A DNA stretch of 64,000 bases from Bolinopsis microptera (Eukaryota > Ctenophora > Tentaculata > Lobata > Bolinopsidae), in assembly GCF_026151205.1 (NCBI RefSeq), contig NC_087076.1, positions 310,001 to 374,000 of the forward strand. Reading direction: 5' to 3'. Below, piece by piece: positions 2,033 through 22,700 of the stretch. The notes under the pieces are model-generated. The model was given only the letters and a program-made list of their open reading frames with translations. It was not told the origin of the DNA and did no database searches. A program made the translations under genes and the position numbers. Position 1 is the stretch's first letter. Each line of letters opens with the position of its first letter.

Positions 2033-2960
2033 GTGACCAAAACAGTTTTTGCCCATAACTCTCCAGGGAAGCATTTTTACCCTACGTCACGTCACGTCAT
2101 GGGGGGTGATTCGAAAATTCATAGCGATTTAGTGGGAGCGAAATCGCTCGCCTTAAATAACAAGAATTTCGCCGCGGTTAAACCACGCACGATTAATTTT
2201 CCCTACGATGTACTTGTAGTTGTACCATCAATTCTTTTGAGTGAAAAGTGTGACTGGAAAAAAGTGCAACATATTTACATACTATGCAATGTTTTTTTAT
2301 AAATGAGTAGGATTTGTGCATGGTAAAAATTGACGATTTATTTCACCAATGCAGCGCCGCGCATCAACATTTAATAAATCCAGAAAATTGCGGAAATAAC
2401 TTTGCGAAGGAGGAATTTCACTGTAATAAATTAACACATGGCTAGCACATGTGTTGGCGCCCCCCGCCGAAAAGGCGCCCCCCTGTTGGCGCCGGCCCCT
2501 CCCCTTTTGGTGCCCCTCCCTAAAATTGAACAAATTAGGTGATTTTAGAGGATACGCCGGTAAAATCTCTAAAAAAGTGTGTATCTAGAGTAAAACGCGC
2601 AGTTTTGCTAGTACTTTAGTTAAGTTTTCGAAATTGTCCCACATTCAAACGACGATTTGGCGCCCCCTGCACAGCGGGGCCCTTCGTTACGCCACTGCCG
2701 GGTATGACAATGACAGCCGGCCCTGCGGGTTGCTCAAACCAGAGCCCTCTCGCTTGCAGTGGCGCGCGACCGCCGAAGGCGGCACAGGATTCTACTTGTG
2801 AAACAAGCGCGTCACGCAGTACGCGTAGACAAATGGCTATGTGAACCCTGAGGGTATGACAGTGATCCGAAACGGTGTATTTTTGGACGCTGATTCCGAA
2901 TCACCCCCCATGACGTGACGCGGTAACAATCTCGAAGATCGACTGTAAAGTGATTTAGCA
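2033..2960. mobile_element. Rearranged family-A pieces plus hAT-like end
   Basis: The stretch ACGTGACCAAAACAGTTTTT...GTCATGGGGGGTGATTCG (2031-2113) is one half of the 376-bp family-A element seen intact at 21021-21396. The same half recurs inverted near 2885-2915, so the block is palindromic at large scale. Between them are GC-rich repeats (2452-2530) and an end reading CAGTGGCGTAACGAAGGGC on the minus strand (about 2680-2698). That end resembles a common terminal sequence of animal DNA transposons. A B-family element (2730-2845) is inserted here. No intact gene was found. Confidence 0.4.
2730..2845 (-). mobile_element. Hairpin element family B, copy 1
   Basis: A 116-bp element from TTGCTC to TATGTGAA, flanked by CCCTGCGGG (2721-2729) and CCCTGAGGG (2846-2854), a 9-bp duplication with one mismatch. 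This is the longest family-B copy. It includes hairpins CCGCC-GAA-GGCGG, CTTGT-TTC-ACAAG and CGCGT/ACGCG. Other copies lie at 15667, 17084, 17603 and 18459. Confidence 0.75.
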
Positions 2961-3026
2961 CGCTCAAACTTGAATCGATGTATTTTCGGACGCTGATGCC
3001 GAATCACACCATGACATAGGGTTAAA

Positions 3027-3209
3027 TTACTGGGCGGCGCTCAGCCTGTCATTTCTTGTATCACGTGGTGACCCCCACTGTCGCTTCACTGTAGAGATTC
3101 GACGATACAGGGGGAGCCACGCACTCGTGCGCGGCGGGTCATACAACGTATGACAAGTCATTTCGCCTAATAGTAATACAATAGCTTGGTGTCCCCAGTG
3201 CCCAGGTAA
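3027..3209. mobile_element. Hairpin element family G, copy 1, interrupted by family C
   Basis: Flanked by AGGGTTAAA (3018-3026) and AGGGTAAAA (3210-3218), a 9-bp duplication of the family-A sequence. It reads TTACTGGGCGGCGCTCAGCC ... CCCCAGTGCCCAGGTAA, as in the other copy (4014-4089, opposite strand), but is split by the C element at 3056-3156. Confidence 0.65.
3056..3156 (+). mobile_element. Hairpin element family C, copy 1
   Basis: A 101-bp element from TTGTATCACG to TATGACAA, flanked on both sides by GTCATTTC (3048-3055 and 3157-3164), an exact 8-bp duplication. Its right end folds as GTCATAC-AAC-GTATGAC with a 7-bp stem. Inside are CCACGCAC-TC-GTGCGCGG and a CCCCC/GGGGG pair. Confidence 0.78.
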
Positions 3210-3341
3210 AGGGTAAAAATGCTCTCCTGGCGAGATATTGGCGAAAAACTGTCTCGATCACGTGATATGACCATATAAGGAAGTTGGTCTAAAGCATATG
3301 CGTTAGAGAGAGATTGGGATCAAATTAGAGGGCTAGAATTT

Positions 3342-3438
3342 TAACAGGTGATACTCGTAATATATCTGTTCCGAGTTGGACCGTCGACGAGTCCAACTCT
3401 GAACTCGGCGCGCGTCCTGGTAGGTTGTAAACCTACAA
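3342..3438 (+). mobile_element. Hairpin element family F, copy 1
   Basis: A 97-bp element from TAACAGGTG to CCTACAA between exact CTAGAATTT duplications (3333-3341 and 3439-3447). Its right end folds as GTAGGTT-GTA-AACCTAC. Internal hairpin: GAGTTGGAC and GTCCAACTC around a 9-nt loop. It is inserted in the family-A copy. Confidence 0.75.
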
Positions 3439-3549
3439 CTAGAATTTCGAATATGGAATAGTCATTCAGGCCTCAAGGCCACCAATAGCGTGTTTAAAAA
3501 GTCACGTGACCAGTGACAGTCGAGTGTAGAGTGATTAATCATCATCCAT

Positions 3550-4004
3550 TGCTTAGGGTTAGGGTTATAGATAGCGTCGGGTGCGGGGTCATGCATCATG
3601 GCTATAAAGTTACTGGCTCGGCTTGTTACTATGCTAGAGGTGATCGCGACGCGACATCGCGTCTTCACAGCGAGCTCATGATCGCGCGCGCTTAACTTTA
3701 TTGTGCACGTGACACAATTCAGTCAATCAGACCCAGCAAACCTTACCTGGGGACCCCAGGCTGTCATATTTATGTTCATAACTGTCACCAAGATTTAACT
3801 AGGTCGAACGGAAAAATTAGGTCTCACGCAGGAATTAGGTCTCACGCAGGCGCGGCCAGAAAAGCTTACCGGCTGGCCGTGTTACTAGAGGTGGTTGTTT
3901 TTCGATAGCGCGTGTGTCAGCGCGCGTGACGTCATGTTCACTGCATGCGCATGATCGCTCGCGTGAATTACAATCTGGAGTCATGACAACGACATTACTT
4001 TGCA
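3550..4004. repeat. Additional hairpin-rich repeat sequence
   Basis: Contains a telomere-like TTAGGGTTAGGG run at about 3554-3566 (normal part of family A) and two related blocks starting TTACTA..CTAGAGGTG (about 3627 and 3882) and ending ATGATCGC(G/T)CGCG. The first folds as GACGCGA-CA-TCGCGTC. A direct repeat AATTAGGTCTCACGCAGG occurs twice (about 3815 and 3832). Probably more members of the small hairpin group, but boundaries could not be fixed. Confidence 0.4.
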
Positions 4005-4013
4005 AAGTAATTC

Positions 4014-4089
4014 ATTACCTGAGGACCCCAGGCTATTATGTTCATTAACATAAAGATTTGGCGGAATGACAGGCTGAGCGCGGCCCAGT
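4014..4089. mobile_element. Hairpin element family G, copy 2
   Basis: A 76-bp element (ATTACCTGAGG ... GCGGCCCAGT) between AAAGTAATTC duplications (4004-4013 and 4090-4099). It folds as CCTG..CAGG at one end and TTATGTT-CATT-AACATAA in the middle. It matches the family-G copy at 3027 in reverse orientation. Confidence 0.65.
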
Positions 4090-4433
4090 AAAGTAATTCA
4101 AAGTAATTCAAAATCTAGGTTGTCCCAAATTTGGCTCCTGGGGAGCTAACTTTAGTTTTACGAGACGGACATTTTGTTGAAAACCTGAACTTTCTATCCC
4201 TTTTACTTCCGAAGTTAGGTCCCTAACGGTAAGGTTTCCTGGGCGGCTTTTAATGTATTTATATTAATATATATCACGCGCCTGCATTAAGTGATTGCAT
4301 CTTCACAGCTTTTATTTGAACTCCGCGCGCGCAAGTTCATTGTATTTGCACAATTCAAACATTCCAATAATGTAATTGCACCACGTAATATACAATTTAG
4401 CCAATTAGAGGACAAAAATCCGCAAAGTTAAAG

Positions 4434-4541
4434 TTGGAGGACTTCGCCGCTTCGACGCGAACTAGCATTCTTGCTTCGCATCGTCGATCGTTGCTCTGCT
4501 TCGCAGAGCAACGATCTCGATGGGTTGACATCGTCAACCAA
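4434..4541 (+). mobile_element. Hairpin element family D, copy 1
   Basis: Starts TTGGAGGACTTCG and ends CATCGTCAACC(AA), between AAAGTTAAAG (4424-4433) and the same sequence at 4540-4549. The long hairpin GATCGTTGCTCTGC-TTC-GCAGAGCAACGATC has a perfect 14-bp stem. The end hairpin is GGTTGAC-ATC-GTCAACC. Confidence 0.72.
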
Positions 4542-4585
4542 AGTTAAAGCTGTGTACTTTTATTAGGCCCAAAATAAAACTTTTC

Positions 4586-4689
4586 TTGTATCACGTCGTG
4601 ATCCCCACGGTCGTTTCACTACTGTAGAGTTTCTACGATACAGGGGGAGCCGCGCACTCGTGCGCGGCGGGTCATACAACGTATGACAA
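4586..4689 (+). mobile_element. Hairpin element family C, copy 2
   Basis: Same termini as the copy at 3056 (TTGTATCACG ... TATGACAA). Left end folds as ATCACG-T-CGTGAT, internal CCGCGCAC-TC-GTGCGCGG is perfect, right end GTCATAC-AAC-GTATGAC is perfect. The flanks AACTTTTC and GTTTTTCA give only a decayed duplication. It interrupts the 3' part of the reverse-transcriptase relic that follows. Confidence 0.7.
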
Positions 4690-4930
4690 GTTTTTCATAC
4701 ATAACATGGCTGTACGAGACTTTTACACTGTATGTTCCGGTTCAAGATCTTGTGTAGTGGATTGTCACGAGGGAACATATTGGTCTCCACAGTGACAGAG
4801 AACGGAGGATTGAACCAAAGGACCCTGCGTTTCCTCCTTCTATTACGTAGTGGTTTTGCCTCGCCTGCCTGGGTGTTGTAGGTCATGCACGAGTCCATAT
4901 AGCCGCTTGACTTCAATGCATCCTCGTAGT

Positions 4931-5710
4931 ATTAGTTTATGTAATCAGTAATAAGCGCCATGAGTTGGCATAGAATTTTTCCCTCCGATTTCGATAAATT
5001 TGGTACCAAAAGTTGTCTAAAAATGTGAATAAAATAATTCCACCGTGTATCAATTTTCGCTAAAAATACTGCACGGCGCTTGTTCGCCGCGCGTGCTTTT
5101 TTCCGTGCAAATTTTTAGTTTTTGGCCTATAACTTTCACAGTTTTGGTTATTATGGAATAATTGTTATGGCATCGTAATTTAATCAGCTCATCTAGACGA
5201 AACTTTTGGTATTAACATCATAAGATTTAAAGGAACAATATTTTCAAATTTTTAAAACCTGGTGAAATTTTGAAAATTTTGTCCTTCAAATATTATAATT
5301 TTAGTACCAAAAGTTGCGTCTGACTAATATACATTTATTACGATACTGTAAAATTATTTCAAAATATTCGATATTTTAGGAGTTATATGGATTTTAAGCA
5401 ATAAATCACCTGTTTTCGTCCTTTTTACACTCTTGCAATGCACAGGAGGCCCACATACTATACAGCACATACTATACAGCTCGACGTTATCGTGCTACAC
5501 GGTGAATTTTCATTATTCACAGTTATAGGCAACTTTTGGTACCAAATTTATCAAAATCAGAGTTGTAGGTTTATAACCTACCAGGACGCGCGCCGAGTTG
5601 GACTCGTCGACGATCCTGATATTTGGAACAAATATTTTACGAGTATCACCCGTTAAAATCAGAGACAAAAAATTCTGTGCCAACTCATGGCGCTTGTTAC
5701 ATAGACTAAA
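4931..5710. mobile_element. TIR DNA element inserted in the reverse-transcriptase relic
   Basis: Inverted ends: AAGCGCCATGAGTTGGCA(T)AGAATTTTT at 4953-4980 and its complement at 5667-5695. Weaker extension TTAGT(T/C)TATGTAA continues outward on both sides. The AT-rich interior carries three related copies of GTACCAAAAGTTG, two direct and one inverted, and no transposase. It splits the RT relic between AKP and ALKSSGY. A family-F element is nested at 5563-5655. Superfamily unknown because the target duplication is unclear. Confidence 0.65.
5563..5655 (-). mobile_element. Hairpin element family F, copy 2
   Basis: A 93-bp element from TTGTAGG to CCCGTTA between exact AAATCAGAG duplications (5554-5562 and 5656-5664), in reverse orientation to copy 1. 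End hairpin GTAGGTT-TAT-AACCTAC keeps the stem of copy 1 while the loop differs. Confidence 0.75.
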
Positions 5711-6243
5711 TTTAAGGCTTGGCGTCGTCGAACACCTCATTACAGGAGGATAAGCTGTTGATTCGGTCAGCGATCATCTCCGGGATGTTACGGATGATGG
5801 ACGGTGGGTGATTTGACTGGCGGTGTACATATTTCGTTACCTTCTCTGCTTTGCGGAATGAGCCATCCGATTGGAAAGTAACGTCGATGAAGTCGACAGA
5901 TGTGGATGGTGGGGACACAAGCTCTCTCTCCGGAATGTAGCAAACAAATCCTTCCGAATCCGCTCCATTGACCATTCTGGGGCTGTCTATCAGCATCACG
6001 AGTCCATCGTCCCTATAAAGGCCGTGGAATTGTGGTGGGAGGATATCTCCTAATGGAAGGATAGAACGACTCAATGTCGAACTGGAGAAACTGGGCATGC
6101 CCGGGTGTAACAGCATATATAGTAAGATATACAACAGACCTACAATGTACAAATGACAAAGCGAATTTTGTGACGTCGTGTAATGCGCGCATAGCGCGCG
6201 CAACCAGTTTTAGGAAGCGAATTTTGCGAGACATCTTCATCAA

Positions 6244-6648
6244 GAATTCTATTGCGTGCTCCTGTTTAGTACGACCCGCAAAATATTACCACTGTCACAA
6301 AGCCATTAAGTGGTTTTAAGTTACTCTTTCATCACCCATAACCCAGGGACGGGATACAGATATCAGATAAGGAACTGGAAGGTTAACTATCGACTCTACG
6401 AGTGATCTAACCATTGAATTACCCTTTTAACTTAAGGAGATGCAGGTGAAGAATATGGAAAATGTAGATGGTGACAACAAACACCCATTTCAATTTAAAA
6501 AGTATTTTAATTTTACAAAAATATTATACACAAAGGAACAATAACACATTATGATGTATACGCTAGTAAGCAGAACTTTCAGTGTACTCAAAATAATGAA
6601 AACATGATGTAACATAACAATACGAAATTCAACATAAGACTGTTTCTA
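6244..6648. other. Spacer between RT relic and ARPC2 3' end
   Basis: No supportable gene. The sequence is AT-rich. The palindrome GCGCGC-ATA-GCGCGC lies just inside the relic at about 6186-6200. Confidence 0.4.
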
Positions 6649-6654
6649 TTTATT
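6649..6654 (-). terminator. Poly(A) signal of ARPC2
   Basis: AATAAA on the minus strand, about 55 nt downstream of the ARPC2 stop codon, a normal position for a polyadenylation signal. Confidence 0.6.
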
Positions 6655-6708
6655 CTGCCAGTCCGAGTCAGAAACTAAAAATAGCAAGAACAATTCACCC
6701 ATTATTAA

Positions 6709-9700
6709 TTAAAACTTTTTCCCAACACCAAATTTTTTCTCAGTCATGGCCTCAGGCTTTGCGCGGTTCAGAACCTGAAATAATAATTATGACAAATCAA
6801 TAACATATCGTTTAAAAATAACGTATACGGAGGTGGCCAGGGGGGAGGGGGGTTCCACGTATACTAGGCAAAGTCAGAATCTTTATGGATTGATCAAAAA
6901 GAAGTTAAATAAATTACCTTCAAGAACTCGGAAGTTTTGCTCCTCATACGAGAGTGGAGGAAAGCCTTGCTGCACTTGATGTGGTAATGTAGATAAGTTC
7001 TGAACTGGTGGATCAGATTAATGGTGTTATCCCGATTTGTTGGGCTTGTGTGTCGAGGGAACAACACAAATGTCACGTACCTGAAAGCAAACAAATCAGC
7101 AAACTTTTATTTAGATTATAGGAAAGCTTTTAAGAAAAACAATGTTTACAGGTTATTTAATTATTGACATTACCAACTGTAATTATTCCCCAATTATAGA
7201 CTGAAGGCTATTAAACTATGACTATATTTCACATTATATACACTCAGTTTGTTTTTTAAAGACGGCAAGGCTTCAAAATTGAAAAATTAAAGACAGGTCT
7301 CAAAATAGATCGGATGTAATAAAGCACATTTCACACACTGACCTTACACTTCTACCAGAAAATTTAAAGACGGGTTGCGATGAATTAAAAACGGTGAAGC
7401 CTTCAAAACGCCTTCGTCAAAATTAACTGTCTTTATTCTTCTCTTCGGAATTATATCCCCGAAAAGTCGTGAACACTGAGCACTGATAATTTCCCGCAAG
7501 AGTTGCGGGACCGCCAGTCGCCTTGATGAGCAGTGCGGGAAGTTTCTAATGGCGAAAAATTGTGACTAATTTTTATGGTGAATTGAGTTTCCAAATTGTA
7601 ACATTTCACCATTTTTCACCATTTTACACAATTTTTTGATAAGTTTATTAGCCTTCTAATTTTAGTTTTGACGTGGTGTTATAATTATAAAACAATATTT
7701 GATTATTAACTCAGATTTTGAGGATGTAAAGAAACAATTAAACATGTGTTTCATTATATTTAAAGTAATACAGGTTTTACAATTTAGAAACTCGATTCAC
7801 CAAAACAATCATTTACCATTTTTCATCCAAACTAGTAATTTTTGGTGAACAATGAACATGGCGAGTAAGGTACATCAAAACTGGTAACTGGTAACTTTTG
7901 GTCATTATTTTATTACTAGGTGGTGGTGAAGTTATTGAGACAAAAACTCCTGTTCTGAAAGTTGTCCTTTGTACTTGTTTCACTGACCCACGCTTTTAAG
8001 CATTTATACATTTCGGCCCATTTTATATGTTTGTTCGATTTGCTGTACATTTGTATACTTGCTATTTTGTAAAAGTTTCAAATCAAATCAAATCATGGCG
8101 TCGCAAGTAAGGTACATAACTGGTAACTTTTGGTGAACATGGCGAGTAAGGTACATCGAAACTGAGCTCTTAGTATTGTCGTACAGTACCAGAATACACA
8201 TTTAATATTTCAAATTTTTAATCCCGGCCGGGACCAGCTTAATCCCGGCCGGGACCGGGATTTTCATGATATTTCTATGTTGAAATGTAACATTTTAAGC
8301 AACCTTCGTATAAAGGTTCCATTGACGACATTGATATCAACATCGTTATATCTTCGGATGAAGATGAGCCTGAAATCTAATCAATCCTTCGAGTTTCGAT
8401 TTTCATTTCGATTAGTTCGATTCTTAACAGTCATTTCATTTGTCAAGTAATAAAATATGAATTTGAAGCTAAATTGGATTAAAAAGATAGAAATTCTGTT
8501 TTAAAAATCCCGGCCAAAACGGTAATCCCGGCTCAGACCGGGACAAAAACTCCAAATCCCGGCCGGTATCCCGGTCGAGCTCTGTTGGAAACATTACACA
8601 TACTTTCATTCAGAAACCGGAGAAAATTATAACAAATAACACCTTGGCTTAGTTTCTTGCCGACTGCCGCGTAGCCAAGGTATCATTTTATTTTAAAACA
8701 AACTGTATGTAACTTTGTTCCGAGAATCTTTGCCAAATTGAATAAATTAAACGACTTTAAGTTAAGTACCCGATGTTGTCTCCTCTCAGTAGACCAGGTT
8801 GTCCATTTAGCTCCGCGGGAGGCTCCCCATATGAAAACAGCACTTGTGGAGCCTGTTGGTGCGCTTTTCTTGCATCCTTGAACTCTTGCAAGAATACCTG
8901 ATCACAAATACGTTTCCGAATTAAATCTGCCAGTTAATCAAAATATTAAAGTATAATTCCGATTTACCACACCCGATTTACCACACCCGATTTACCACAC
9001 CCGATTTGCCGCAGCCATTTCTTTTCCCTCCTTCCGCTAAGGGTCGTTCAAATATTAATACGTTATCAATTTTTTGGCAATTCTCACCCCCTCTCCCCTC
9101 CGTAATTAACTGTAATTAAATTTAATCAAGACCCACCCCCCTCCTGACAGCAAATTTGTCGAATTGGCATTCCGAAATCTGCCATTTACAAATGATCTGC
9201 TCAGTTACAGCCTTACAAGAGGAGAAGTAATTGAGCCAGCAGAAACTGTCAGGGACTTGGGGGGTCATTCTATCACACGAATGCTCTTGGACACCCGTAC
9301 CCCACGTCCCCACATCCAGAAAATGATCCAATGCATCATGGGTTCAAAGCTACTGTAAAAGCTACTGTACCGGCACTGAACAACAAATCACAGCACTCTA
9401 TGGCAACACAAAGCTGTGGAATCTTCCCAAAGAAATAAATTCCATCTCTACTTTGGGCTTGTTAAAATCGTTACTGGCTAAATTCCCGACACGCCCCCTA
9501 CTAATGATACACTGCTACTAACAACAACTCACTCTTGGAATGGTACTTACAAAAAGACCCCAGCGGAGGACGTCCTACTGCTGAAGCGATCCCAGCCAAA
9601 CCTACTCAAAGCGTTCAAAGCGTTATTCTAGGTTAAAAATGAAAATTTTGATCACGGAATCAACAGCCAAAACCCCCTCCCCTCCCCCCTCGGCTGATTA

Positions 9701-12700
9701 TGTAATATATGTGAACGACCCCTCAAAATAAATAATAAAATGATGTAAATGAAAAACCTGATTTACCGTAGTTGTATCCTTTCCTGGTAAATCAGGGTTT
9801 ACTGTACTAGTCGATTCAAGTTAGACTAAAAATAAGTGAGTACCTTGCCGATGACAACATCATCAGGATCTTTAAAGAGGGTAGAGAATATGACAGTTAC
9901 TCTGTCGGGGTGTGCACTGATGTAAACCGCCTCTTCTTCATGATAATGGACCACTGCTGTCCTGTCTGACGCTGTCTCTGCTTCTTGCATCTGGACATGG
10001 AGTTAAATTTGATAAATCGTCATCAAACCACGTTAAAGATTTTAAGGCCTATCTCAAAATATTTTCTGGGTAATCTTATATCTTATCTCTTCTAAATGAT
10101 CCTCAGAACATATCTTGAAAGTTTAAGGGTGATTGCTTATGCACTATGTAGAAGAATATAGATTTTTAGACTTGATTTTCAGTGTACACGAATCACGATT
10201 GAAGATCGTTCGCGCAATACAAATTACTAAAATTACTCATAATGTTCGGTTAGAGAACTGTATAGTTGAAAGCACTTGACTACGTATAGAGGCGATATAC
10301 TGCCTCTATACGTATATATAATAGACAAAATATTGAACGCTGAGATTACAAACTTTAAGTTTCACGAAATAAAAAATAAATCAATCATCAGCGTGTATGA
10401 TACTGAATAAAATATTACTGATATGTCAGCCCTGAGCTGAGTGCCCATATTGTTAGTATTATGTAATACAATAATAGAAATGGAGGCATATGAAAATAGT
10501 GATTGCCATAGTGAATAGTGATTGGTTACCTTGAAAGTGATTGGTTACCTTGAAATATTTCTCAAAGACAGAAGCAAAGCAGTTACGCTTAAGAAGGGAT
10601 GCTTTCAGAGCCAAAGCTTCTCTATCCGCAGGAAGGGACGCTAAATCAAACTTTAGAGTCACATCGTAGCTCTCCTAAATAATAGGAACATTGTCGATAA
10701 TTTAACAAATACATATCTGATGAGTCTTACTTGTTCGGTATTTTTACACTACTGTATTCAATTTCAACATACCTACTCGGGAGCTGTGATAAAAAGAGAG
10801 AACTGAAAGGTAAGGAGTAAAACTCATCAGCAACACATTATGTCTGCACATTATGTCTGCACATTAAGTCTGCACATTATGTCTGCACATTATGTCTGCA
10901 CATTATGTCTGCACATTATGTCTGCACATTAAGTCTGCACATTATGTCTGCACATTATGTCTGCACCTTATGTCTGCACATTATGTCTGCACATTATGTC
11001 TGCACATTATGTCTGTACCTTATGTCTGCACATTATGTCTGCACATTATGTCTGCACCTTATGTCTGCACATTATGTCTGCACATTATGTCTGTACCTTA
11101 TGTCTGCACATTATGTCTGCACATTATGTCTGCACCTTATGTCTGCACATTATGTCTGCACCTTATGTATGCACCTTATGTATGCACCTTATGTCTGCAC
11201 ATTAAGTCTGCACATTATGTCTGCACATTATGTCTGCACATTATGTCTGCACCTTATGTATGCACCTTATGTATGCACCTTATGTCTGCACCTTATGTCT
11301 GCACCTTATGTCTGCACCTTATGTCTGCACCTTATGTCTGCACCTTATGTCTGCACCTTATGTATGCACATTATGTCTGCACCTTATGTATGCACCTTAT
11401 GTCTGCACCTTATGTCTGCACATTATGTCTGCACATTATGTCTGCACATTATGTCTGCACATTATGTCTGCACATTATGTCTGCACATTATGTCTGCACA
11501 TTATGTCTGCACCTTATGTCTGCACATTATGTCTGCACCTTATGTCTGCACATTATGTCTGCACCTTATGTATGCACCTTATGTATGCACCTTATGTCTG
11601 CACATTATGTCTGCACCATATGTCTGCACCTTATGTCTGCACATTATGTCTGCACCTTATGTCTGCACATTATGTCTGCACCTTATGTCTGCACATTATG
11701 TCTGCACCTTATGTCTGCACATTATGTCTGCACCTTATGTCTGCACATTATGTCTGCACCTTATGTCTGCACATTATGTCTGCACCTTATGTCTGCACAT
11801 TATGTCTGCACCTTATGTCTGCACATTATGTCTGCACCTTATGTCTGCACATTATGTCTGCACCTTATGTATGCACCTTATGTCTGCACCTTATGTCTGC
11901 ACCTTATGTCTGCACCTTATGTCTGCACCTTATGTCTGCACATTATGTCTGCACATTATGTCTGCACATTATCTCTGCACATTATGTCTGCACATTATGT
12001 CTGCACATTATGTCTGCACATTATGTCTGCACATTATGTCTGCACATTATGTCTGCACATTATGTCTGCACCTTATGTCTGCACCTTATGTCTGCACCTT
12101 ATGTCTGCACATTATGTCTGCACATTATGTCTGCACATTATGTCTGCACATTATGTCTGCACATTATGTCTGCACATTATGTCTGCACATTATGTCTGCA
12201 CATTATGTCTGCACATTATGTCTGCACCTTATGTCTGCACATTATGTCTGCACATTATGTCTGCACATTATGTCTGCACATTATGTCTGCACATTATGTC
12301 TGCACATTATGTCTGCACATTATGTCTGCACATTATGTCTGCACATTATGTCTGCACATTATGTCTGCACATTATGTCTGCACATTATGTCTGCACATTA
12401 TGTCTGCACATTATGTCTGCACATTATGTCTGTCAGCACATTATGGCAGGTGATTCAATAAAGCAAAAATGCTTTTAGTTTTATACTGAAAAGTTTACCT
12501 CAGGTGTGGCTTGAAGCGCATCACCATATTCTCTTTGCAGTAAATCTTGGACTCCGTGTGCCACCAGATCTTCAAACATTCCCATTCTCGCACTCAGAAG
12601 TATAATTCCTTTATCGTTGGGAGGATTACTGAATACAATAACAATTAATACGAGTGGTAACCGTATGTTCCTTAAACTTATACATACAAGGCCAAGGGAT

Positions 12701-13003
12701 TATTCACATATTATGGATACATAATTCAAAATTTGGACCCCTATGTAAGCCATTTTACACAAAGCCATCGTGTAGAAATTACACTAGCACAAGCTACCCC
12801 TACCAATAATATATGAATGATCGAGTCTTATGATAACAAACTTTTGTAAAAACGAAGAAATTAAAATTCATATTTCACCTTATTTGATATTGTACTCCAT
12901 CAAAATCAACTGCAGCTATATTTACACTTTCAGGCTTGGCAGCAGCAAACTTTGCTTTTAGAGTTTCGCAAATAACTCTGTTGTTTTCTTCTAACAGTAT
13001 CAT
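6709..13003 (-). CDS. ARPC2: Arp2/3 complex subunit 2 (p34-Arc), complete, 7 coding exons
   Basis: ARPC2 forms, with ARPC4, the core of the seven-subunit Arp2/3 complex that nucleates branched actin filaments. Coding exons: 13003-12879, 12628-12499, 10674-10549, 9990-9844, 8897-8770, 7080-6918 and 6774-6709 (stop 6711-6709). All phases join and all introns are GT-AG; total 885 nt, 294 residues, against 300 in vertebrates. Diagnostic pieces: start [19 protein letters not shown], then [66 protein letters not shown] and [12 protein letters not shown]. The C-terminal tail is shorter than in vertebrates. Intron 2 holds a 1.6-kb minisatellite, and later introns hold transposon pieces. The exon-3 donor is tandemly duplicated. 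Confidence 0.97.
7241..7440. mobile_element. MITE with CACTCAGTTTG end, ARPC2 intron 6
   Basis: Begins TACACTCAGTTTG followed by AAAGACGGCAAGGCTTC. Inside are inverted motifs (GAAGCCTTC, TGTCTTTA). It shares its left end with the complete palindromic copy at 58494-58617. The right terminus is decayed. Confidence 0.5.
7441..8218. other. AT-rich intron sequence of ARPC2
   Basis: Intron 6 sequence with no coding signal. A short phrase (GGTACATCAAAACTGGTAACT / GGTACATAACTGGTAACTTTTGG) is repeated around 7868-7900 and 8108-8165. Confidence 0.35.
8219..8585. mobile_element. hAT-like remnant with AATCCCGGCCGGGA repeats
   Basis: Clusters of AATCCCGGCCGGGACC at 8220-8262 and diverged copies at 8506-8573 face each other. 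The right end read inward is CAGAGCTCGACCGGGA, like hAT termini. The middle can be read as a short acidic tail (ISSDEDE, about 8352-8372), typical of the C-terminus of a hAT transposase. The left terminus is not clear. Confidence 0.45.
8964..9010. repeat. Short tandem repeat CCACACCCGATTTA
   Basis: About three direct copies of a 15-bp unit (CGATTTACCACACC) in ARPC2 intron 4, just outside a TIR element. Confidence 0.6.
9041..9722. mobile_element. TIR element GGGTCGTTCA...TGAACGACCC in ARPC2 intron 4
   Basis: Left end GGGTCGTTCAAATATTAATA and right end TGAACGACCCC form imperfect inverted repeats about 680 bp apart, the look of a non-autonomous DNA transposon. The interior includes a fragment that reads VRDLG (9250-9264) on the plus strand, resembling the region downstream of the YADD motif in non-LTR reverse transcriptases. 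The fragment is short and followed by stops. Superfamily not assigned. Confidence 0.45.
10521..10562 (-). repeat. Tandemly duplicated splice donor of ARPC2 exon 3
   Basis: On the minus strand the end of exon 3, TTTCAAG|GTAACCAATCAC, is followed 19 nt later by a second TTTCAAG|GTAACCAATCAC. Only the upstream donor keeps frame with exon 4. Use of the second would add 19 nt and shift the frame. Confidence 0.7.
10833..12445. repeat. 13-bp minisatellite in ARPC2 intron 2
   Basis: About 120 copies of TGCACATTATGTC with recurrent variants (ACATT to ACCTT, GTCTG to GTATG). On the plus strand all three frames stay open for about 1.5 kb, because the 39-nt translation period contains no stop. The apparent proteins (repeats of [13 protein letters not shown]) are an artefact of this. 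Variant patterns such as alternating ACATT/ACCTT (about 11510-11860) suggest higher-order amplification. Confidence 0.95.
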
Positions 13004-13860
13004 GATCCTAAGTCATGTTTATGATTAATTGAGAGCTGATAAGTAAATCAAATAAATCTCTAAAATGAAATAGAAGGTTTCGTTTGGGTAAGGAGTGTTG
13101 GGAGGTGTCATCTCACTTAAAGCACACATACTCATTACTCAATACTGCGCAATCTATGCACTTCAAAGTAAGTTTTCTACTGAGTACTGTCTTATTTCCA
13201 TTTTAAAGAGTTGAAAGGGACTTTCGACAGTTAGCTCTAAAATTTCAGAGAAATTGAGTTCCATAGTGCAAAGCTAGCTACCTAGTGTATAACAACGCAT
13301 GTATAATGTATATAAATGTAAAATAAATAATGTTTTGTGAATATGGCAGTTTAGTATAGTACCCAGAAGTAACTACCCACATGCAACCCTTAAATAACTC
13401 ACGTAATTCGTATCAGAATTGCTCAAAAACCCAGAGAATATAGATATGGGTCAAATTTAGATTTCCTGAAAATTTCATAAAATGTCATCGATAACATAGG
13501 GTGTGGCACGCCATTCCTCTTTTTCACTATTATCACCATAAAGTGAGAACATTTTGAGCTAGGAACTCCAAAGTTTCCATGGACACATTTGGTTTGATAA
13601 TTGAATTGCTTTCCCAAAATTAGAAGTTGGTTGTTTACAATTTAACCAAGTTATGACCCTTTTAAGATCTTGCGGATACGTGATCTCGGCACATAATCAG
13701 TGATTTCGTCACCCACATTTTTATTGCGATAATAAATTTTAAAAAATTATCGCGATAATATCGGTGAAGCATCTATCGAACTGGCCCTGTCTCAAAGAAG
13801 TTCTTTGTGGAACTTGATGACTTATTGGGTTCTGAAAGTCTGAAAAGTGACTATATAATA
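13004..13860. other. Upstream region of ARPC2
   Basis: Probably holds the ARPC2 5' untranslated region and promoter, but no clear core element could be fixed. A motif ATTATCGCGATAATATCGG near 13747-13763 also occurs diverged near 61376-61400, so part of this is dispersed repeat DNA. Confidence 0.35.
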
Positions 13861-14560
13861 ATTTTGATTGAAATAAATTTTCGTGCACATACAGAATGAA
13901 TGGTTAATAATTTAATATATATGTAGACCAAGCTCTGTGCACGGGATGCTTCCTGGAAGAATCCAGTTCTTTTAGCGGGGCACCCTACCTAAAGCCAAAT
14001 TGAGATATAATAATCATATTCCTAGGGAAATAATCAGAAATCGAATACCAATCAAATAATATGATATATAGGAGTAGTAACCATATTTACTATGCAAAAT
14101 GCCCCAACCTCATAGTGTAAATTTATATAAAATTCAAATTCCATACCACCACTAAACCCCAACAGTCAACACAACAGCCCAAGCAAAATTAAATAACTTC
14201 TTATATACTGTCATACTACAAATTAATTAAACATTTGAAATCTGTTAACCAGAGAATAAATTTCTAAACCTAATGCAAGTGAAATAATTTAGATGCAATA
14301 ATGAATGCCTAATATGAGTATCATCTGTCAATGTCCTTGTAGAACAGTCTGTACAAGAGATATGAGTAACTAATATAGAAGGAAAAAAAACAGGAAGTTG
14401 TCGTCTGTTGGAAAATAAATAAAATGTCTAGTATATAAATTAGAATATAAAATAACATTCGGTCAATGTGTCGTCAATAAACTGTACAATTATCAAATGT
14501 TAAAACTGTACTGGGTGATACAGTCACCAAAAATAAATACTAAGTATAATAAGTTAATAA

Positions 14561-15140
14561 ATTGGAGGAGACTTCAATATTCACACAGAGTCAATTACTG
14601 TTAACTCAACTGAACTACTGCAGACTACCTCATCTTATGGTTTCAAGCAACTTATTGAAAATCCGACCCACATGAGTGGAGGAACTATTGACCTGCTCTT
14701 TGACCAGAGTAACTTGATTGAAACGTCTACAATTGAAATCCTGAAAAACTGCACCCTAAGTGATCACTTCCCCATCATATTTGCCACCAAGAAGTTTCAA
14801 ACTAACCTCACAGCTCCTAAAACAATCAACACTATAAAGCTTAAAACTGTGGATTGTGATTACTTGGCAATTGATTAATTGATTTGTTCCTCTGACTATG
14901 AATTGGCTTTGTTGAATCTTGTGAACAATTTTCCAATGTATTGGTAGCGTCCTCGATGAACATGCGCCTTTGGTTCAAAAGACTATAAGCTTTGTTCCCC
15001 ATGCTCCCTGGTTTGATTCTGAGTAAAAGATCAAAGGAAACTTAGAAGGAAAGCCGAGAGAAATAAGCATAAAAGTGAAGAGAACAGGATACTCTTTGAA
15101 GAGATCCGAAATGAAACAAAAAACATGGCTAATCTTCCTG
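14561..15140 (+). pseudogene. Non-LTR retrotransposon endonuclease relic (APE type)
   Basis: Reads IGGDFNIHTESITVN from 14561, then GFKQLIENPTHMSGGTIDLL and CTLSDHFPIIF (to about 14800). The GDFN and SDH(F) motifs are the catalytic signature of the AP-endonuclease domain of CR1/Jockey-type elements. After a stop at 14876-14878, another frame continues with HAPWFDSE (about 14998-15024), the linker preceding the reverse transcriptase, again with a stop. It is truncated on both sides and not functional. Confidence 0.75.
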
Positions 15141-15143
15141 GAA

Positions 15144-15285
15144 CAGCCAGGCATTTGGTGAGTTGGTACTGATATGGTTGGTATGAAGCCGTTGTTGAAT
15201 ATTATTTCTTGGAATTTGTCCTCTGATGGAGATGGGTCGTTCAAAATGTTAACATTGAAATTGGTTAACAGATTTCAAATGTTCA
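15144..15285 (-). pseudogene. Second endonuclease fragment of a non-LTR element
   Basis: Minus strand: NFNVNILNDPSPSEDKFQEI then NNGFIPTISVPTHQMPG, matching the GDFNIDLL...F...GF.P.I..PTR segment of another non-LTR endonuclease family. Only this segment remains. It faces the plus-strand fragment within the same inverted repeat. Confidence 0.55.
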
Positions 15286-15666
15286 ATTAATTTGTAGTAT
15301 GACAGTAAGGTATATAAGAAGTTATTTAATTTTGCTTGGGCTATTATATTGACTATTGAGGTTTAATGATGATATGGAATTTGAATTTTATATAAATTTA
15401 CACTGTGGTTGGGGCATTTTGCATAATAAATATGGTTACTACTCCTATATATCATATTATTTGATTGGTATTCGATTTCTGATTATTTCCCTAGGAATAT
15501 GATTATTATATCTCAATTTGGCTTTAGGTAGGGTGCCCCGCTAAAAGAACTGGATTCTTCCAGGAAGCATCCCGTGCACAGAGCTTGGTCTACATATATA
15601 TTAAATTATTAACCATTCATTCTGTATGTGCACGAAAATTTATTTCAATCAAAATCACCAAGAATA

Positions 15667-15758
15667 TTCACATAGCCATGTGCCTACGCGTACTGCGTGA
15701 CGCGCTTGTTTCCGGCGGTCGCGCGCTACTGCAAGCGAGAGGGCTCTGGTTAGAGCAA
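15667..15758 (+). mobile_element. Hairpin element family B, copy 2
   Basis: A 92-bp element TTCACATAGCC ... GGTTAGAGCAA between exact CCAAGAATA duplications (15658-15666 and 15759-15767). Compared with copy 1 it lacks the ACAAGTAGA block. Both terminal hairpins are intact: CACAT-AGCC-ATGTG and GCTCT-GGTT-AGAGC. Confidence 0.8.
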
Positions 15759-15767
15759 CCAAGAATA

Positions 15768-16035
15768 TATAATTTTTTGCCATTCAGTTTTGAGAGAATA
15801 CGTTCATACGCTTTGTTGAACATTTTGAACAGTGATGCGTTGGGGACGGTATATAACCCATACGACAGTTGGATATTGCAAGCTAGTGATAGATACAAAC
15901 AGTGATTCTATGTGTTCATTACAGAGAGATAAGCCAGTGATTCTGTTTAAGTTAAGGGAATCGTGTAGTTAAAGACACACTCTTGACCTTTTACCCTTCA
16001 ACTGGTTTTTCTCTTGGCAAAAGTAGCGTGATTAG
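15768..16035. other. Spacer between small elements
   Basis: No recognisable gene. A plus-strand open frame passing through the B element here is not conserved-looking and is driven by the insertion. Confidence 0.3.
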
Positions 16036-16044
16036 TAACAGGAG

Positions 16045-16175
16045 TTGACGGATGTTACTCGTCTAAGTTTCTTCGAAGTAGCGCGCGCCGCTTTCTTCTT
16101 GAAACGTTGGCAAGAGCTACGATGGCAAGAGCTACGAAGTAGCGCGCGCCGGGCCAGATCATTAACAATGGTCAA
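16045..16175 (+). mobile_element. Hairpin element family E, copy 1
   Basis: A 131-bp element TTGACGGATGTTACTCGTC ... AACAATGGTCAA between exact TAACAGGAG duplications (16036-16044 and 16176-16184). End hairpin GATCATT-AAC-AATGGTC (one G-T pair). Internal direct repeats TGGCAAGAGCTACGA and GTAGCGCGCGCCG. Confidence 0.78.
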
Positions 16176-16465
16176 TAACAGGAGGAGTATCCGTTAAGCT
16201 GATATAGAGTTCCATCTTAGGGATTAATGTTTGTTTCTGCAAGGCCAATAACAGAGAATTTGTGGTCGATACAAGACAATTCAACTGCAAAGTTGTCAAA
16301 GTTACCTGGCTCGCCAATCCCTGTGCGCGGCGCTTCCTATCGTATTCAAGCTTCCTGTTCATGAAACTTGAATACGAGAAGATTGCGCAATAAACTAGCA
16401 AGTTAGGTAAGTTGAAATAAAATGAAATAAATATTTATATCCCGCTTATAGTTATACATTATATC

Positions 16466-16666
16466 TTGATGGATGTTACTTTTATTTGGAGGACTTCGCC
16501 GCGCCGCGCAAACTAGCATTCTTGCTTCACATCGTTGCTCTGCTTCGATCGTTACTCTGCTTCGCAGAGCAACGATCTCGACGGATTGACATCGTCAATC
16601 AAGATGTTACTCGTCTAAATTTCTTCGAAGTAGCGCGCGCTGGGCCAGACCATTAACAATGGTCAA
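16466..16666 (+). mobile_element. Hairpin element family E, copy 2, split by family D
   Basis: TTGATGGATGTTACT [D insertion] CGTCTAAATTTCTTCGAAG ... AACAATGGTCAA between exact CATTATATC duplications (16457-16465 and 16667-16675). It lacks the middle block of copy 1. End hairpin GACCATT-AAC-AATGGTC is perfect. Confidence 0.78.
16481..16602 (+). mobile_element. Hairpin element family D, copy 2 (nested in E)
   Basis: TTTATTTGGAGGACTTCG ... CATCGTCAATCAA between exact GATGTTACT duplications (16472-16480 and 16603-16611). Its end hairpin is GATTGAC-ATC-GTCAATC where copy 1 has GGTTGAC-ATC-GTCAACC: a paired change that keeps the stem. Confidence 0.78.
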
Positions 16667-17083
16667 CATTATATCAACAACCAATATTATTAAAAAGAAA
16701 AATTGCCAACTTAAAAGTGGCTGGCGTGATGTTGTAGCGCGATGCGTTACTGGGCCGGCCCCGCGCATCCAATAATGCTTCTCGCAATAATGAATAATGC
16801 TTCGTTAGATCGGTGAGATGCGCTACTGGGCCTCATCGAGCTGCGAAGAATTGACAATTAAACGTGGCGCATTTGGATGATGATTAATCACTCTACACTC
16901 GACTGTCACGTGACTTTTTCAACCTGTTCTCTAGCTGGTGCTGAATGACTATTTTAAACCCTAACCCTCTAATTTGATCCCAAACCGAACCCTAACCAAA
17001 TCTGTACCAAAAGCATATGCTGAAACTCTAACCCTAACGAGAAATTAGACTAACTTCCTTAAGCTATATATATACGGTCATTT

Positions 17084-17186
17084 CACATAGCCATGTGTAT
17101 ACGCGTACTGCGTGACGCGCTTGTTTCACAAGTAGACCTTCGGCGGTCGCGCGCTACTGCAAGCGAGAGGGCTCTGGTTAGAGCAA
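17084..17186 (+). mobile_element. Hairpin element family B, copy 3 (nested in A)
   Basis: A 103-bp element TTCACATAGCC ... TTAGAGCAA between exact TACGGTCAT duplications (17075-17083 and 17187-17195), located where the intact A copy reads an uninterrupted ATACGGTCAT. Confidence 0.82.
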
Positions 17187-17260
17187 TACGGTCATGTTAC
17201 GTGATCAAGACAGTTTTTCACCAATATCTCGTCAGGGGAGCATTTTAACCCTATGTCATG

Positions 17261-17361
17261 TTGTCATACGTTGTATGACCCGCCGCGCACGAAGTGCGCG
17301 GCTCCCCCTGTAGCGTCGAAGCGTATAGTGAAGCGACCGTGGGGGTCACCACGTGATACAA
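17261..17361 (-). mobile_element. Hairpin element family C, copy 3 (nested in A)
   Basis: A 101-bp element TTGTCATACG ... GTGATACAA between exact ATGTCATG duplications (17253-17260 and 17362-17369). Hairpins GTCATAC-GTT-GTATGAC and CCGCGCAC-GAA-GTGCGCGG are perfect. Its target is the CCTATGTCATGGGGGG stretch of family A. Confidence 0.82.
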
Positions 17362-17602
17362 ATGTCATGGGGGTGATTCGGAATCAGCGTCCGAAAATAC
17401 ATCGATTGCAATATATATCAACTGTCGAGGGCCCTTTTACAACAATCTCGAAGATCGACTGTAGAGTGATTTAGCACGCTCGGGCGCATTTGCCGCGGTG
17501 ACAAAAACAATTAAATGTGATAATCTAAACTCCAGAATGCATGTATATTCCCAATAAATGTAAAGTGTAAGAGTTCATATAATATATATATGGCTTGACC
17601 AC

Positions 17603-17667
17603 TTGCTCTAACCAGAGCCCTCTCGCTTGCAGTAGCGCGCGACCGCGTAGACTCATGGCTATGTGAA
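17603..17667 (-). mobile_element. Hairpin element family B, copy 4 (nested in E)
   Basis: A 65-bp element TTGCTCTAACC ... GGCTATGTGAA between exact CTTGACCAC duplications (17594-17602 and 17668-17676). It has lost the middle hairpin blocks of copy 1. Confidence 0.82.
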
Positions 17668-17777
17668 CTTGACCACTGTTAATGGTCTGGCCCGGCGCGC
17701 GCTACTTCGTAGCACTTGCCATTTCGAGAAGAAAGCGGCGCACGCTACTTCGAAGAAATTTAGACGAGTGACATCCG

Positions 17778-18153
17778 TGGATGATGATTAATCACTCTAC
17801 ACTCGACTGTCACGTGACTTTTTCAACCCGTTCTCTAGCTGGCCCTGAAAGACTATTCGAAACCCTAACCCTCTAGTCTGATTCCAACCCTAACCCTAAC
17901 CCAATCCATAACAAAAGCATATGCTGAAACCCTAACCCTAACGAGAAATTAGACTAACTTCCTTATATGGTCATATCACGTGATCGAGACAGTTTTTCGC
18001 CAATATCTCGTCAGGGGAGCATTTTAACCCTATGTCATGGGGGGTGATTCGGAATCAGCGTCCGAAAATTGATCGATTGAAGTTGATTTCAACTGTCGGG
18101 AGCCCTTTTAGAACAATCTCGAAGATCGACTGTAGAGTGATTTAGCACGCTCG
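17778..18153 (-). mobile_element. Family-A TIR element (nested in E)
   Basis: 376 bp between exact GACATCCG duplications (17770-17777 and 18154-18161). Subterminal inverted repeats AATCACTCTACACTCGA / TCGACTGTAGAGTGATT. It contains CCCTAACCCTAACCC stretches and GTGATCGAGACAGTTTTTCG. 8-bp duplications and no coding capacity suggest a hAT-mobilised MITE (inference). Confidence 0.82.
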
Positions 18154-18458
18154 GACATCCGTCAAATATATGGCCAAAACAAATTATAAAATGGCCAAAA
18201 CAAATGTGTATTATTATGTAATATCTATTTTATTAAATAAAATGTAAACTATTATATTTCACTCATACATTTTCATGGACTAGACCGGCGCGCGCGCTAC
18301 TTTGTATCCGTTAGAATAATCTTTATTAGGATTTTTCGTGACCTTTCTCTTCAAATATAGAACCAAATGTTTATTTACCGATCGGCGATTCGGTGAAATA
18401 AAGACATTTTTGAAACACTGAAACAGTTTGAGTTCTTTAGCTTTGATCAGTATCTGAT

Positions 18459-18514
18459 TTCACATAGCCATGAGTCTACGCGTACTGCAAGCGAGAGGGC
18501 TCTGGTTAGAGCAA
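18459..18514 (+). mobile_element. Hairpin element family B, copy 5 (minimal)
   Basis: A 56-bp element TTCACATAGCC ... TTAGAGCAA between GTATCTGAT (18450-18458) and GTATCCGAT (18515-18523). The interior is reduced to TCTACGCGTACTGCAAGCGAG. The deletion junction lies in TACTGC, present at both deletion ends in longer copies. Confidence 0.78.
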
Positions 18515-18599
18515 GTATCCGATGAACGGTGCTAGAGCTTCCATATGATGCTTCATCAGCTGTATTCCCAATACAATTCGAAGCGTGGCTTTTTTGCCA

Positions 18600-19707: not shown

Positions 19708-22700
19708 TCACAGGAAGTGTTTAATCATCTCAACTTTGCGGCTCACTTTGTCCGGGCAATCAGCCAGGTTCAGCTCCACTGGAATGTGGGTTTCCTGTTC
19801 ACACCGCTGCTTGATGGACTCCATAAACTCGCAGAACGGGTGGTCACTGTTCGTATGTCCACAGGAGTCCCTGAATAGACCATATTCTAAAATACTAGAG
19901 TAGCAGGGTGTAGTTAGAGATTAGACAAAATATTCTAAAATACAAACAATATTCTCTCTAATGAAAAAGTAACTTTATTTCTGAAATATTATACAAGAAA
20001 TGTGCACGAGTAGACCATACCTGATACAAGCTCGAGTGTAAAACTCTATTTGTTCATCAGAATGCATGCAGTGAGAGAAAACGTCTCCCTCTAGGATACT
20101 GCGACACTCCTCTTCAAAGATCCTCTCGGTTGTTTCATCTGCACAGGTGTTGGTGAACGGAGCTCCCACCTCGGCTGTTGTTTGAGGGCACTGCAAATCA
20201 GGCACAATCATTAGTATTTCTTTGTAAATATTGTAATTTATCTGGATTTGAAACTTTTAGGCTTCTAAAATATCCTTTAGAAGATTGTGGACAGACTCGT
20301 CTTGCTCAAATTTCAAGGTGAAAACGATTCATTTTAAGATTGATCCGAATGTTGGATCTTGTTAGGACAACCTTCCTTATTATAAGTGTTAACAATTACA
20401 AATATTGTGTTAGTTCGCTGAAATTATCCCGTTGTCTTTTTCCCGCTTCATAAATAACCCCGGCAAAGTTTCTATAATCCCACCCCGCTTTGGTTCAACT
20501 AGATTTGGTTCGTTTCAATATTCCCATGAGAATCTCATTTGCGCACTGTCACGTGTTTTGATGACGCGTGACTAAATACTATGACGCACATTGGTCAAAA
20601 TTGTCACTTGGCCTATGACTTAACGTAAGAACCATAGATCTGCTTGATCTACGTATTAGTCGAATTGCAGGCGCTGGCAAAGTTCCAGCACACCGCTTAC
20701 TATTAGTATTACATTACTTGACCAGTTCCAGAACTTGTCTTGACGACTTGACGGTTATATTATATGAAATATTTGTCCGGTAAATTTTGTTGTAGCGATT
20801 GCACTGTTTGATATAATAGTCGTCTACTTTGATGAACTTCATGACACGATATATCGACTCCACCGTTTTTCGCTTGCCAGGCTTAACTCGACGCCCCTTA
20901 TTGATATTCATTCAACGTTCGGATTGAGGAACTATTTAAAAATAGAACGCCAATTTCAACCGTCAGTACCTTAGTTTTATTTATCTAGTACTAATAGTAG
21001 TATAATATACGATCAAATTGCGAGCGTGCCAAATCACTCTACAGTCGATCTTCGAGATTGTTCTAAAAGGACCCCCGACAGTTGAAACCGACTTCAATAG
21101 ATGTATTTTCTGACGCTGATTCCGAATCACCCACCATGACATAGGGTTAAAATGCTCCCCTGACGAGATATTGGCGAAAAACTGTCTCGATCACGTGATA
21201 TGACCGTATAAGGAAGTGAGTCTAATTTATCGTTAGGGTTAGAGTTTCAGCAAATGCTTTTGTTAAGGATTGGATCAGGGTTAGGTTTGGGATCAGATTA
21301 GAGGGTTAGGGTTTCGAATAGTCGTTCAGGACCAGCTAGAGAACGGGTTGAAAAAGTCACGTGACAGTCGAGTGTAGAGTGATTGATCATCATCCATCAA
21401 ATTGCCCTAGCACTTAGCAGCATCCTGGAGGAGTTTATAACACAAAACGCAGGCACGCTTAAGGTTATATTAAAATAAACCCCCGTGCTAAAGCACGTCA
21501 GCGTTATTTTCATAATAATCTTTCGTGCTTCGCACTCGAAATTATTATCAACTTTTCCCGCGCGTCGCGGGAAAATTTGAAATATAATCTCTGCGCGTGC
21601 CGGCGTTATGGCAGTGTGTTATTATATTTATAGTGTAGAGCGCTGAGTAAAGCAACGAAACGTCCAAAATTAATTTGAGTTAAAGTCATTATCAATTTAA
21701 AAGCAAGTTGGATAAGCTAATGTTAGGAGTAATCCAGTTTTGTGGGATCATGACGGCTACTTCCAGGACAAACATGTTTTAAATAATTCCAAACTTGTCT
21801 CTGCAAGTTGTAGAGCAGGAAGGTGTGCAGTGTATAGTGTATAGTGTATAGTGTATAGTGTATAGTGTATAGTGTGTTGTTGTAAACTCTCACCTGTTGA
21901 GCGAAATAGTCCATCTTCCAACTTCCTATCAGCTCACTAGGACTGTCATTCTCCATCAGTACATTATTATAGTAGCCACTAAACCAGCTCCTCTCTACAT
22001 CATTATCTCCCTTACCACTGTGACCACCACAAAGGCCACAGCTGTCCATGTGGTGTTCTGCAATGATAGTAGCACTACTGTACCCGTCCCACGTCACTGA
22101 GATGCCATGCTGACCCATTGTAATCCTGGCAAGAGTTTTAAATGTTGTAGTATTAACATTCTCAAGTTCAGCTCAATGACTTGCTAAGTTATTAGGGGTG
22201 CTCTGAATAATACTGAATGTAAGATAATAACAGTTAAAACATACGTGTAAATGAGGCCATCTCTGTCGTAATCAATAGTGAGGCTGCCCAACGTGACTTG
22301 CCCGCCAGGAGCGATAATCTCCTCCGTGCCATTATTATTTACTAACCAACCTTGCAGGAACTGAAACATTATCTTCGTCTTAAAATTAAGGCTCGATACT
22401 GTAAATTGAAAATGTGTAATTTAGAGCTCTTATCAGTATTTTGCACTTCAAGCAGTCCGGAAATCAGGTAAAACCGTTACAGGATATCATAAAGAAAATC
22501 TAATAAAGAATAGGTTAGGTAGGTAATAAAGAATACACGTGATCTGAAAATACCTGGACAGCAGTACCGTCGGAAATAACAGTGATGGACTCAAGGCAGC
22601 TGGAGTCGGCTCCACAAGGTTTTATCCTACCGTACACGAACCATTTGGGGTGCTTTCCACAGTCCATAGTAAGAACATACTCACAGGCTCCCACAAAGCT

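Follow-up and report, generated by a model that had tools for sequence, protein, structure and literature searches.

Introduction

Among the systems in print in the literature searched, the closest to the elements described here is Tm1, a group of miniature inverted-repeat transposable elements (MITEs) of the Mutator-like (MULE) type from root-knot nematodes (PMC3169594). Our elements are tiny and non-coding, 56-140 bp long, and belong to several families found between positions 2721 and 18523 of a 64,000 bp window of the genome of the ctenophore Bolinopsis microptera (contig NC_087076.1, positions 310,001 to 374,000; window positions count from its first base). Passages of the Tm1 report describe non-coding elements with target duplications of 8-10 bp (mostly 9), asymmetric terminal motifs and repeated or palindromic subterminal parts, all of which recall the tiny elements, but also terminal inverted repeats (TIRs) of about 14 bp tandem repeats, as well as a coding member that shares its ends with them (PMC3169594). 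The tiny elements, in contrast, have ends that are weakly alike, carry a hairpin 2 nt from most ends and have no coding member that we could find.

In IS200/IS605 and REP-type elements the ends are recognised as folded hairpins, and these single-strand HUH systems are not known to make a target duplication. The DINE-1 elements associated with Helitrons or Helentrons are short and non-coding, with terminal hairpins and subterminal repeats; Helitrons also leave no target duplication. Replitrons, as portrayed in parts of their description, resemble the tiny elements in having no TIR and make duplications of 2-8 bp, but they have direct terminal repeats, are 0.9-4 kb long, are reported from green algae and some land plants and use an HUH enzyme (PMC10741241). 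Merlin MITEs have duplications of 8-9 bp, as found here, whereas their ends are GG, not TT...AA, and their TIRs are at least 24 bp long, according to excerpts of the paper on them (PMC8101967). No elements like those of B. microptera appear in the titles and abstract openings of the open-access papers that the searches brought up, subscription journals and Repbase being outside the scope, and no such family is mentioned in passages from two papers on ctenophore genomes (PMC11797021, PMC11184263).

Structure of the element ends

Read inward from the terminus, positions 3-9 pair with positions 13-19 around a 3 nt centre, forming a palindrome with a 7 bp stem and a 3 nt loop (7-3-7) that starts 2 nt from the end. 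At least five of the seven pairs are present in 12 of 16 consensus ends from eight families, while at 11 other offsets 0-1 of the 16 ends reach that score; alternative stem and loop sizes fail to fit, with the exception of 6/5, which has the same centre. The commonest centres are GTT (6/16 ends) and GAT (4/16). Family F1 has a 5 bp stem and a 4 nt loop at the same offset at both ends, and at each of them 40 of the 44 copies have the hairpin in perfect form.

The arms of an end pair with each other at 4.72 of 7 positions on average, compared with 2.26 when arms are crossed, a result reached in 0 of 100,000 permutations (18 ends, the 3' end of F5 being padded by a T and the ends of F9 set by eye). 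Covariation across 16 ends, with F1 left out, was 0.768 as opposed to 0.201 (sd 0.041) in shuffles and at most 0.170 in slid controls, which retain the relatedness among ends; paired cells made up 80.4% versus 48.3% and at most 43.8%, respectively. One terminal pair of F3 varies among copies as G-C, G.T and A-T. Non-Watson-Crick pairs comprise 16 G.T on the AA-3' strand, 5 G.T on the other strand and 6 of other kinds. New here is the fixed 7-3-7 palindrome 2 nt from most ends, with pairing kept through compensatory changes. It suggests that the ends have a fold-back shape in common more than a sequence, and that the mover may read DNA shape.

A sequence-only reading of the window had taken the families to be unrelated in sequence, which does not hold for their ends: most have in common TTG, a GTT- or GAT-like centre and the palindrome, and the 3' ends of F3 and F8 are similar. 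Of 19 positions, the two ends within a family have 9-14 in common (mean 10.7) and ends of different families 8.0. This internal likeness favours a view of the elements as ordinary MITEs from MULE (Mutator/Phantom) families whose inverted repeats are degenerate or subterminal; the palindromes would be transposase half-sites and each family would have its own enzyme, a reading that we judge unlikely, if deserving of weight. The nematode Tm1 elements, which in the passages describing them have asymmetric ends, Foldback-like repeats and duplications of 8-10 bp, mostly 9 (PMC3169594), argue in its favour as well. However, between the two ends of a family the arms match at only 3-8 of 12 positions, and yet most arms pair with their own partner, which is hard to explain by one sequence-specific enzyme.

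The same reading had described the elements as consecutive perfect hairpins, and this stands for some families only. In F1, F2, F3 and F5 there are more serial perfect hairpins than in dinucleotide shuffles, the observed cover being reached by 0-2 of 1000 shuffles; the same holds for F10 (13/1000) but not for F4 (349/1000), nor for F6 or F8, which have no perfect stem of at least 5 bp. By this strict count inner serial hairpins are significant in 5 of 8 families. Folded as single-stranded DNA, the consensus sequences of F1-F5 do better than their shuffles (z -2.0 to -5.8) in the folding check proposed earlier. A GC box with CGCG or GCGC is present in the consensus of all eight small families (F1-F6, F8 and F10), absent from the larger repeat F7 and, among 576 random windows of 104 bp, seen in 23. 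Since 79-412 of 500 consensus shuffles per family also have one, composition explains much of its presence. In Mnemiopsis, passages of one study report a GC-rich motif bound by CTEP1/2 at more than 75% of chromatin-loop anchors and DNA-transposon insertions in more than 90% of promoters in distal loops (PMC12221973). A link between the CpG boxes of the tiny elements and that loop-anchor motif is no more than a possible lead.

Copies and target duplications in the genome

The genome searched comprises 264.65 Mb in 232 contigs. A first look, with 40 candidates scored per family, gave 1,786 candidates for F1, 2,267 for F2, 1,346 for F3 and 1,196 for F4. We read 155 copies of these four families with their flanks, after dropping three loci with no full element (L081, L083 and L088); as the copies were picked by score and intact end motifs, they lean to young, full-length ones. 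Exact target duplications flank 118 of the 155, of 8 bp in 50 and 9 bp in 68, while exact agreement at other lengths from 5 to 13 bp was seen in 2 and mismatched flank pairs agree at a rate of about 0.0001 or less at 8-9 bp. If a single mismatch is tolerated, 138/155 copies have a duplication of 8-10 bp (F1 38/44, F2 38/47, F3 30/32, F4 32/32). The sequence-only reading had given this range, often with 9 bp; the range stands, with the correction that length is set by the family, being 9 bp in F1, 8 bp in F2 and of both lengths in F3 and F4. An excess of palindromes was looked for at the target sites of these copies and none was seen. The right flank is the same in two of the 155 copies, L085 and L086, which probably represent a single insertion within DNA that is duplicated. 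Short forms of F1 (63-76 bp) occur at 40 places in the genome including the window's own, counted without a duplication check. The tiny elements are clustered in the genome; random DNA gave four family matches in six 10 kb stretches, two of them partial.

A fixed duplication of 8-9 bp is a mark of DDE transposases, and on that ground we propose a DDE transposase as the mover. The earlier view that the elements, as neither standard MITEs nor short interspersed elements (SINEs), fit no known class is not supported. With duplications of fixed length and a defined terminus on either side, they fit DNA transposons, and they are short, non-coding and, by the first-look counts, of high copy number, as MITEs are. 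SINE-like retroelements copied from a structured RNA, in turn, are very unlikely as an explanation: serial hairpins and covariation are typical of structured RNAs, and the partial state of two of the four matches in random DNA would suit such an origin, but the duplication length is fixed at 8 or 9 bp, the copies inspected have no A tail, and neither a tRNA nor an Rfam family at cut-off was found in the region (A and B boxes were outside the scan). Wobble pairs lean, at either end, to the outward 3' strand, which speaks weakly in the same direction. That the elements have no long TIR, no coding room and no poly(A) had been noted before and is supported.

Empty sites were sought for 136 insertions, 19 of the 155 copies being left out for unclear duplications or short flanks. 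Once the insert and one duplication were removed, 23 of the 136 aligned across the junction to another family, 20 with an identity of at least 77% and three as weak matches to F7 (64-68%); the check suggested earlier thus gave restored sites in other families. Seven of 32 copies of F3 are identical across 115 bp, and F3 was therefore recently mobile. Nesting reaches a depth of two, and at 16.9-18.2 kb of the window F1 and F2 sit in one copy of F7 and F1 and F7 in one copy of F4. A preference for inserting into other elements, which the nested cases seemed to show, is not supported: in 97 copies, elements cover a fraction of 0.229 of the sequence up to 10 bp from the junction, against 0.320 at a distance of 90-130 bp. 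Because cover is lower at the junction than farther away, regional clustering explains the nested insertions.

Search for a longer parent and a transposase

Pairing of ends at any distance gave no long parent in 36 loci of more than 3 kb (266 kb in total, with some overlap). Besides the known short elements it returned five pairs, one in L172, one in L163 and three in the window with ends 35-39 kb apart; as six other hairpin offsets give 1-6 end pairs each, five is the chance level. The 1,036 bp pair in L172 was rejected as a parent because it is a tandem gene duplication, and the pair in L163 falls in tandem repeats. From position 7768, L172 contains a small gene duplicated in tandem with a period of about 1,036 bp.

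A genome pattern search for ends with different inner bases found 119 sites for F4, 100 of them listed, and 61 for F2; 20 of these sites (14 F2, 6 F4) were read 2.1 kb inward. Fourteen prove to be copies of F2 or F4 altered by indels, deletions or inserts, and at four (L180, L184, L187, L195) the end adjoins another family. The remaining two, L176:2090-2110 and L177:2092-2110 (minus strand), are lone F2 terminal hairpins, with no direct family match inward and no matching duplication within 2.1 kb; the L176 hairpin is itself flanked by TT and AA. No long parent was thus established by end pairing or by genome pattern, with 18 of the 20 end sites accounted for and L176 and L177 left as lone hairpins.

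The genome has MULE genes (88 matches) and Merlin genes (58), and the duplications read at such genes are 8-9 bp. The MULE reading gains from the presence of these genes, from copies of MULE groups B and C with 8-9 bp duplications (by eye) and from F7, whose duplications are 9 bp long and whose inverted repeats, judged by eye, are subterminal; the range typical of MULEs (8-10 bp, mostly 9) covers the duplications of the tiny elements, those of F2 being 8 bp. The MULE ends read here, however, begin with GG, CC or GA: among three groups, C starts with GG, B has GG at one end and GA at the other, and the ends of A are not clear. Group B (L161-L163) also has subterminal tandem units of 17 bp (CGACATCTGTCCGAAAG) together with inverted pieces, a Foldback-like design.

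Derivation from Merlin is suggested by the presence of its genes, one of them with an 8 bp duplication, but is highly improbable. Three Merlin families read here start with GG (one at both ends, two with one end read), GG ends are conserved and TIRs at least 24 bp long in the published Merlin passages (PMC8101967), and the tiny elements begin with TT.

Single-strand HUH transposition as in Helitrons or IS200/IS605 is the least probable of the alternatives, although terminal hairpins would suit it and Helitron genes are abundant (41 matches to PF14214, the longest open frame having 3,388 aa). Several of these matches have identical scores, so Helitrons may be recent in this genome. IS200/IS605 elements are not known to make a target duplication, and the Y1 transposase had no match in the genome. 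Helitrons make none either, as part of the Replitron paper states (PMC10741241), whereas the tiny elements have duplications of 8-9 bp. The P-type transposase profile PF21787 had no match, its control likewise matching nowhere.

Copies in the window

The observation made in the sequence-only reading is confirmed. Six families, F1-F6, are present, with 17 small copies having both ends in 2721-18523 (five of F1, three each of F2 and F4, two each of F3, F5 and F6). Their lengths are 56-131 bp, as described, apart from three insert-bearing copies. A target duplication, claimed for most copies, is present at 16 of the 17, exact or with one mismatch in 15, and the genome-wide check bears this out (118/155 exact at 8 or 9 bp). 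The stretch also holds F7, which is 375 bp long without inserts and has an exact 9 bp duplication in all three window copies, and the decayed F8.

The F1 copies (TTCACATAGCCATG...GGTTAGAGCAA) lie at 2730-2845 (minus strand, 116 bp, 9 bp duplication with one mismatch), 15667-15758 (plus, 92 bp, exact 9 bp), 17082-17186 (plus, 105 bp, exact 9 bp, within an F7 copy), 17603-17667 (minus, a 65 bp short form with an exact 9 bp duplication, set into the end of an F4 copy) and 18459-18514 (plus, the shortest form at 56 bp, 9 bp with one mismatch). F2 (TTGTATCACG...CGTATGACAA) is found on the plus strand at 3056-3156 within an F6 copy (8 bp duplication gtcatttc) and at 4586-4689, where a clean duplication is absent, and on the minus strand at 17261-17361 within an F7 copy (8 bp, atgtcatg). 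F3 (TTGGAGGACTTCG...GTCAACCAA), on the plus strand, occupies 4434-4541 (8 bp duplication) and 16486-16602 within an F4 copy, with the 9 bp gatgttact on both sides and 5 filler bases on the left (by eye).

F4 (TTGACGGATGTTACTC...ACAATGGTCAA) is uninterrupted at 16045-16175 (plus, 131 bp, 9 bp duplication taacaggag), has the F3 insert at 16466-16666 (plus, 9 bp, cattatatc) and bears F1 and F7 inserts at 17595-18165 (minus, atatatggc on both sides by eye). F5 (TTGTAGGTTTATAACC...TATCACCCGTTA) lies at 5563-5655 (plus, 9 bp duplication) and 3342-3438 (minus, 9 bp, ctagaattt), and F6 (TTACCTGAGGACC...GGCCCAGTAA) at 4015-4091 (plus, 77 bp, 9 bp duplication) and, with the F2 insert, at 3027-3209 (minus, flanks agggttaaa/agggtaaaa). 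The F7 copies are at 17779-18153 within F4 (plus, subterminal inverted repeats by eye, 9 bp duplication gacatccgt), at 16875-17482 with F1 and F2 inserts (plus, ggcgcattt, 9 bp) and, beyond the stretch, at 21021-21395 (minus, atcaaattg, 9 bp). An F8-like copy (TTGTAGCGCGATGC...) at 16732-16862 (plus) has a decayed 3' end and no duplication was seen at it.

Elsewhere the window has many long minisatellite arrays with periods of 13 to 171 bp (10834-12432, 22978-23615, 26156-27298, 29072-30908, 31314-34849, 41364-42377, 47680-48940, 50373-50836 and 57141-58233), and an open frame at 36647-37360 looks by eye like a seven-helix receptor.

Discussion

We think it fairly probable that the tiny elements represent non-autonomous DNA transposons, some 56-140 bp in length, and that a DDE-type transposase, which perhaps requires a hairpin-forming end, moves them in trans. 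Under this scenario, an enzyme with an 8-9 bp stagger would recognise each end at least partly via the strand's own hairpin, formed as a cruciform or as a single strand after a deep staggered cut, and AA-3'OH would be left free for strand transfer, with the inner hairpins possibly helping folding or spacing. Recognition of a folded strand is proposed because pairing is better kept than sequence, and the greater number of G.T pairs on the AA-3' strand (16 versus 5) weakly places the fold on the transferred strand. Should the arms be free in sequence provided that they pair, one enzyme could serve many families. MULEs would be the likeliest source of the transposase, although an autonomous element with such ends was not found. 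The earlier suggestion of a structure-reading enzyme gains support from the terminal palindrome and its compensatory changes; the enzyme itself we infer.

Several observations weigh against this reading. We found no transposase gene bounded by TT...AA hairpin ends, those ends of MULE and Merlin that were read beginning differently, and saw neither live movement nor a footprint. The palindrome geometry was discovered and tested on the same ends, which are partly kin by descent, and the consensus sequences of F8 and F10 come from two copies each. Pairs changed on both sides (342/500) and pair types (49/500) are not clearly above shuffles. The 5' end of F3 pairs at 2 of 7 positions and the 3' end of F9 at 3 of 7, the 3' end of F5 fits only when padded, and in L186, an F9-like copy flanked by an exact 8 bp duplication, each end pairs at 2 of 7. 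Scans for new TT...AA families with exact duplications yielded mostly tandem-repeat noise beyond the known families, leaving the palindrome unconfirmed on new ones. The partial matches in random DNA (two of four) also count here, as does the sequence shared by the two ends of a family, on account of which the ends may instead be degenerate sequence TIRs.

A bolder form of the hairpin reading, which we put forward tentatively and hold to be rather doubtful, is that they form a guild of eukaryotic transposons with structure-encoded ends. The signal would be a 7-3-7 hairpin at a distance of 2 nt from each 3'-OH, the arms would be nearly free in sequence, and one shape-reading transposase would serve many families of diverse sequence.

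If true, this would be a DDE-type system with folded-end recognition, of which none is described in the open-access literature searched. Transposon ends are normally found through the sequence identity of inverted repeats, and since pairing is better conserved than sequence in the tiny elements, they would be hard to find by identity. The 56 and 65 bp copies with good duplications are very short candidate substrates, and if the transposase reads the hairpin, they would bear on the question of how cut-and-paste enzymes recognise folded DNA.

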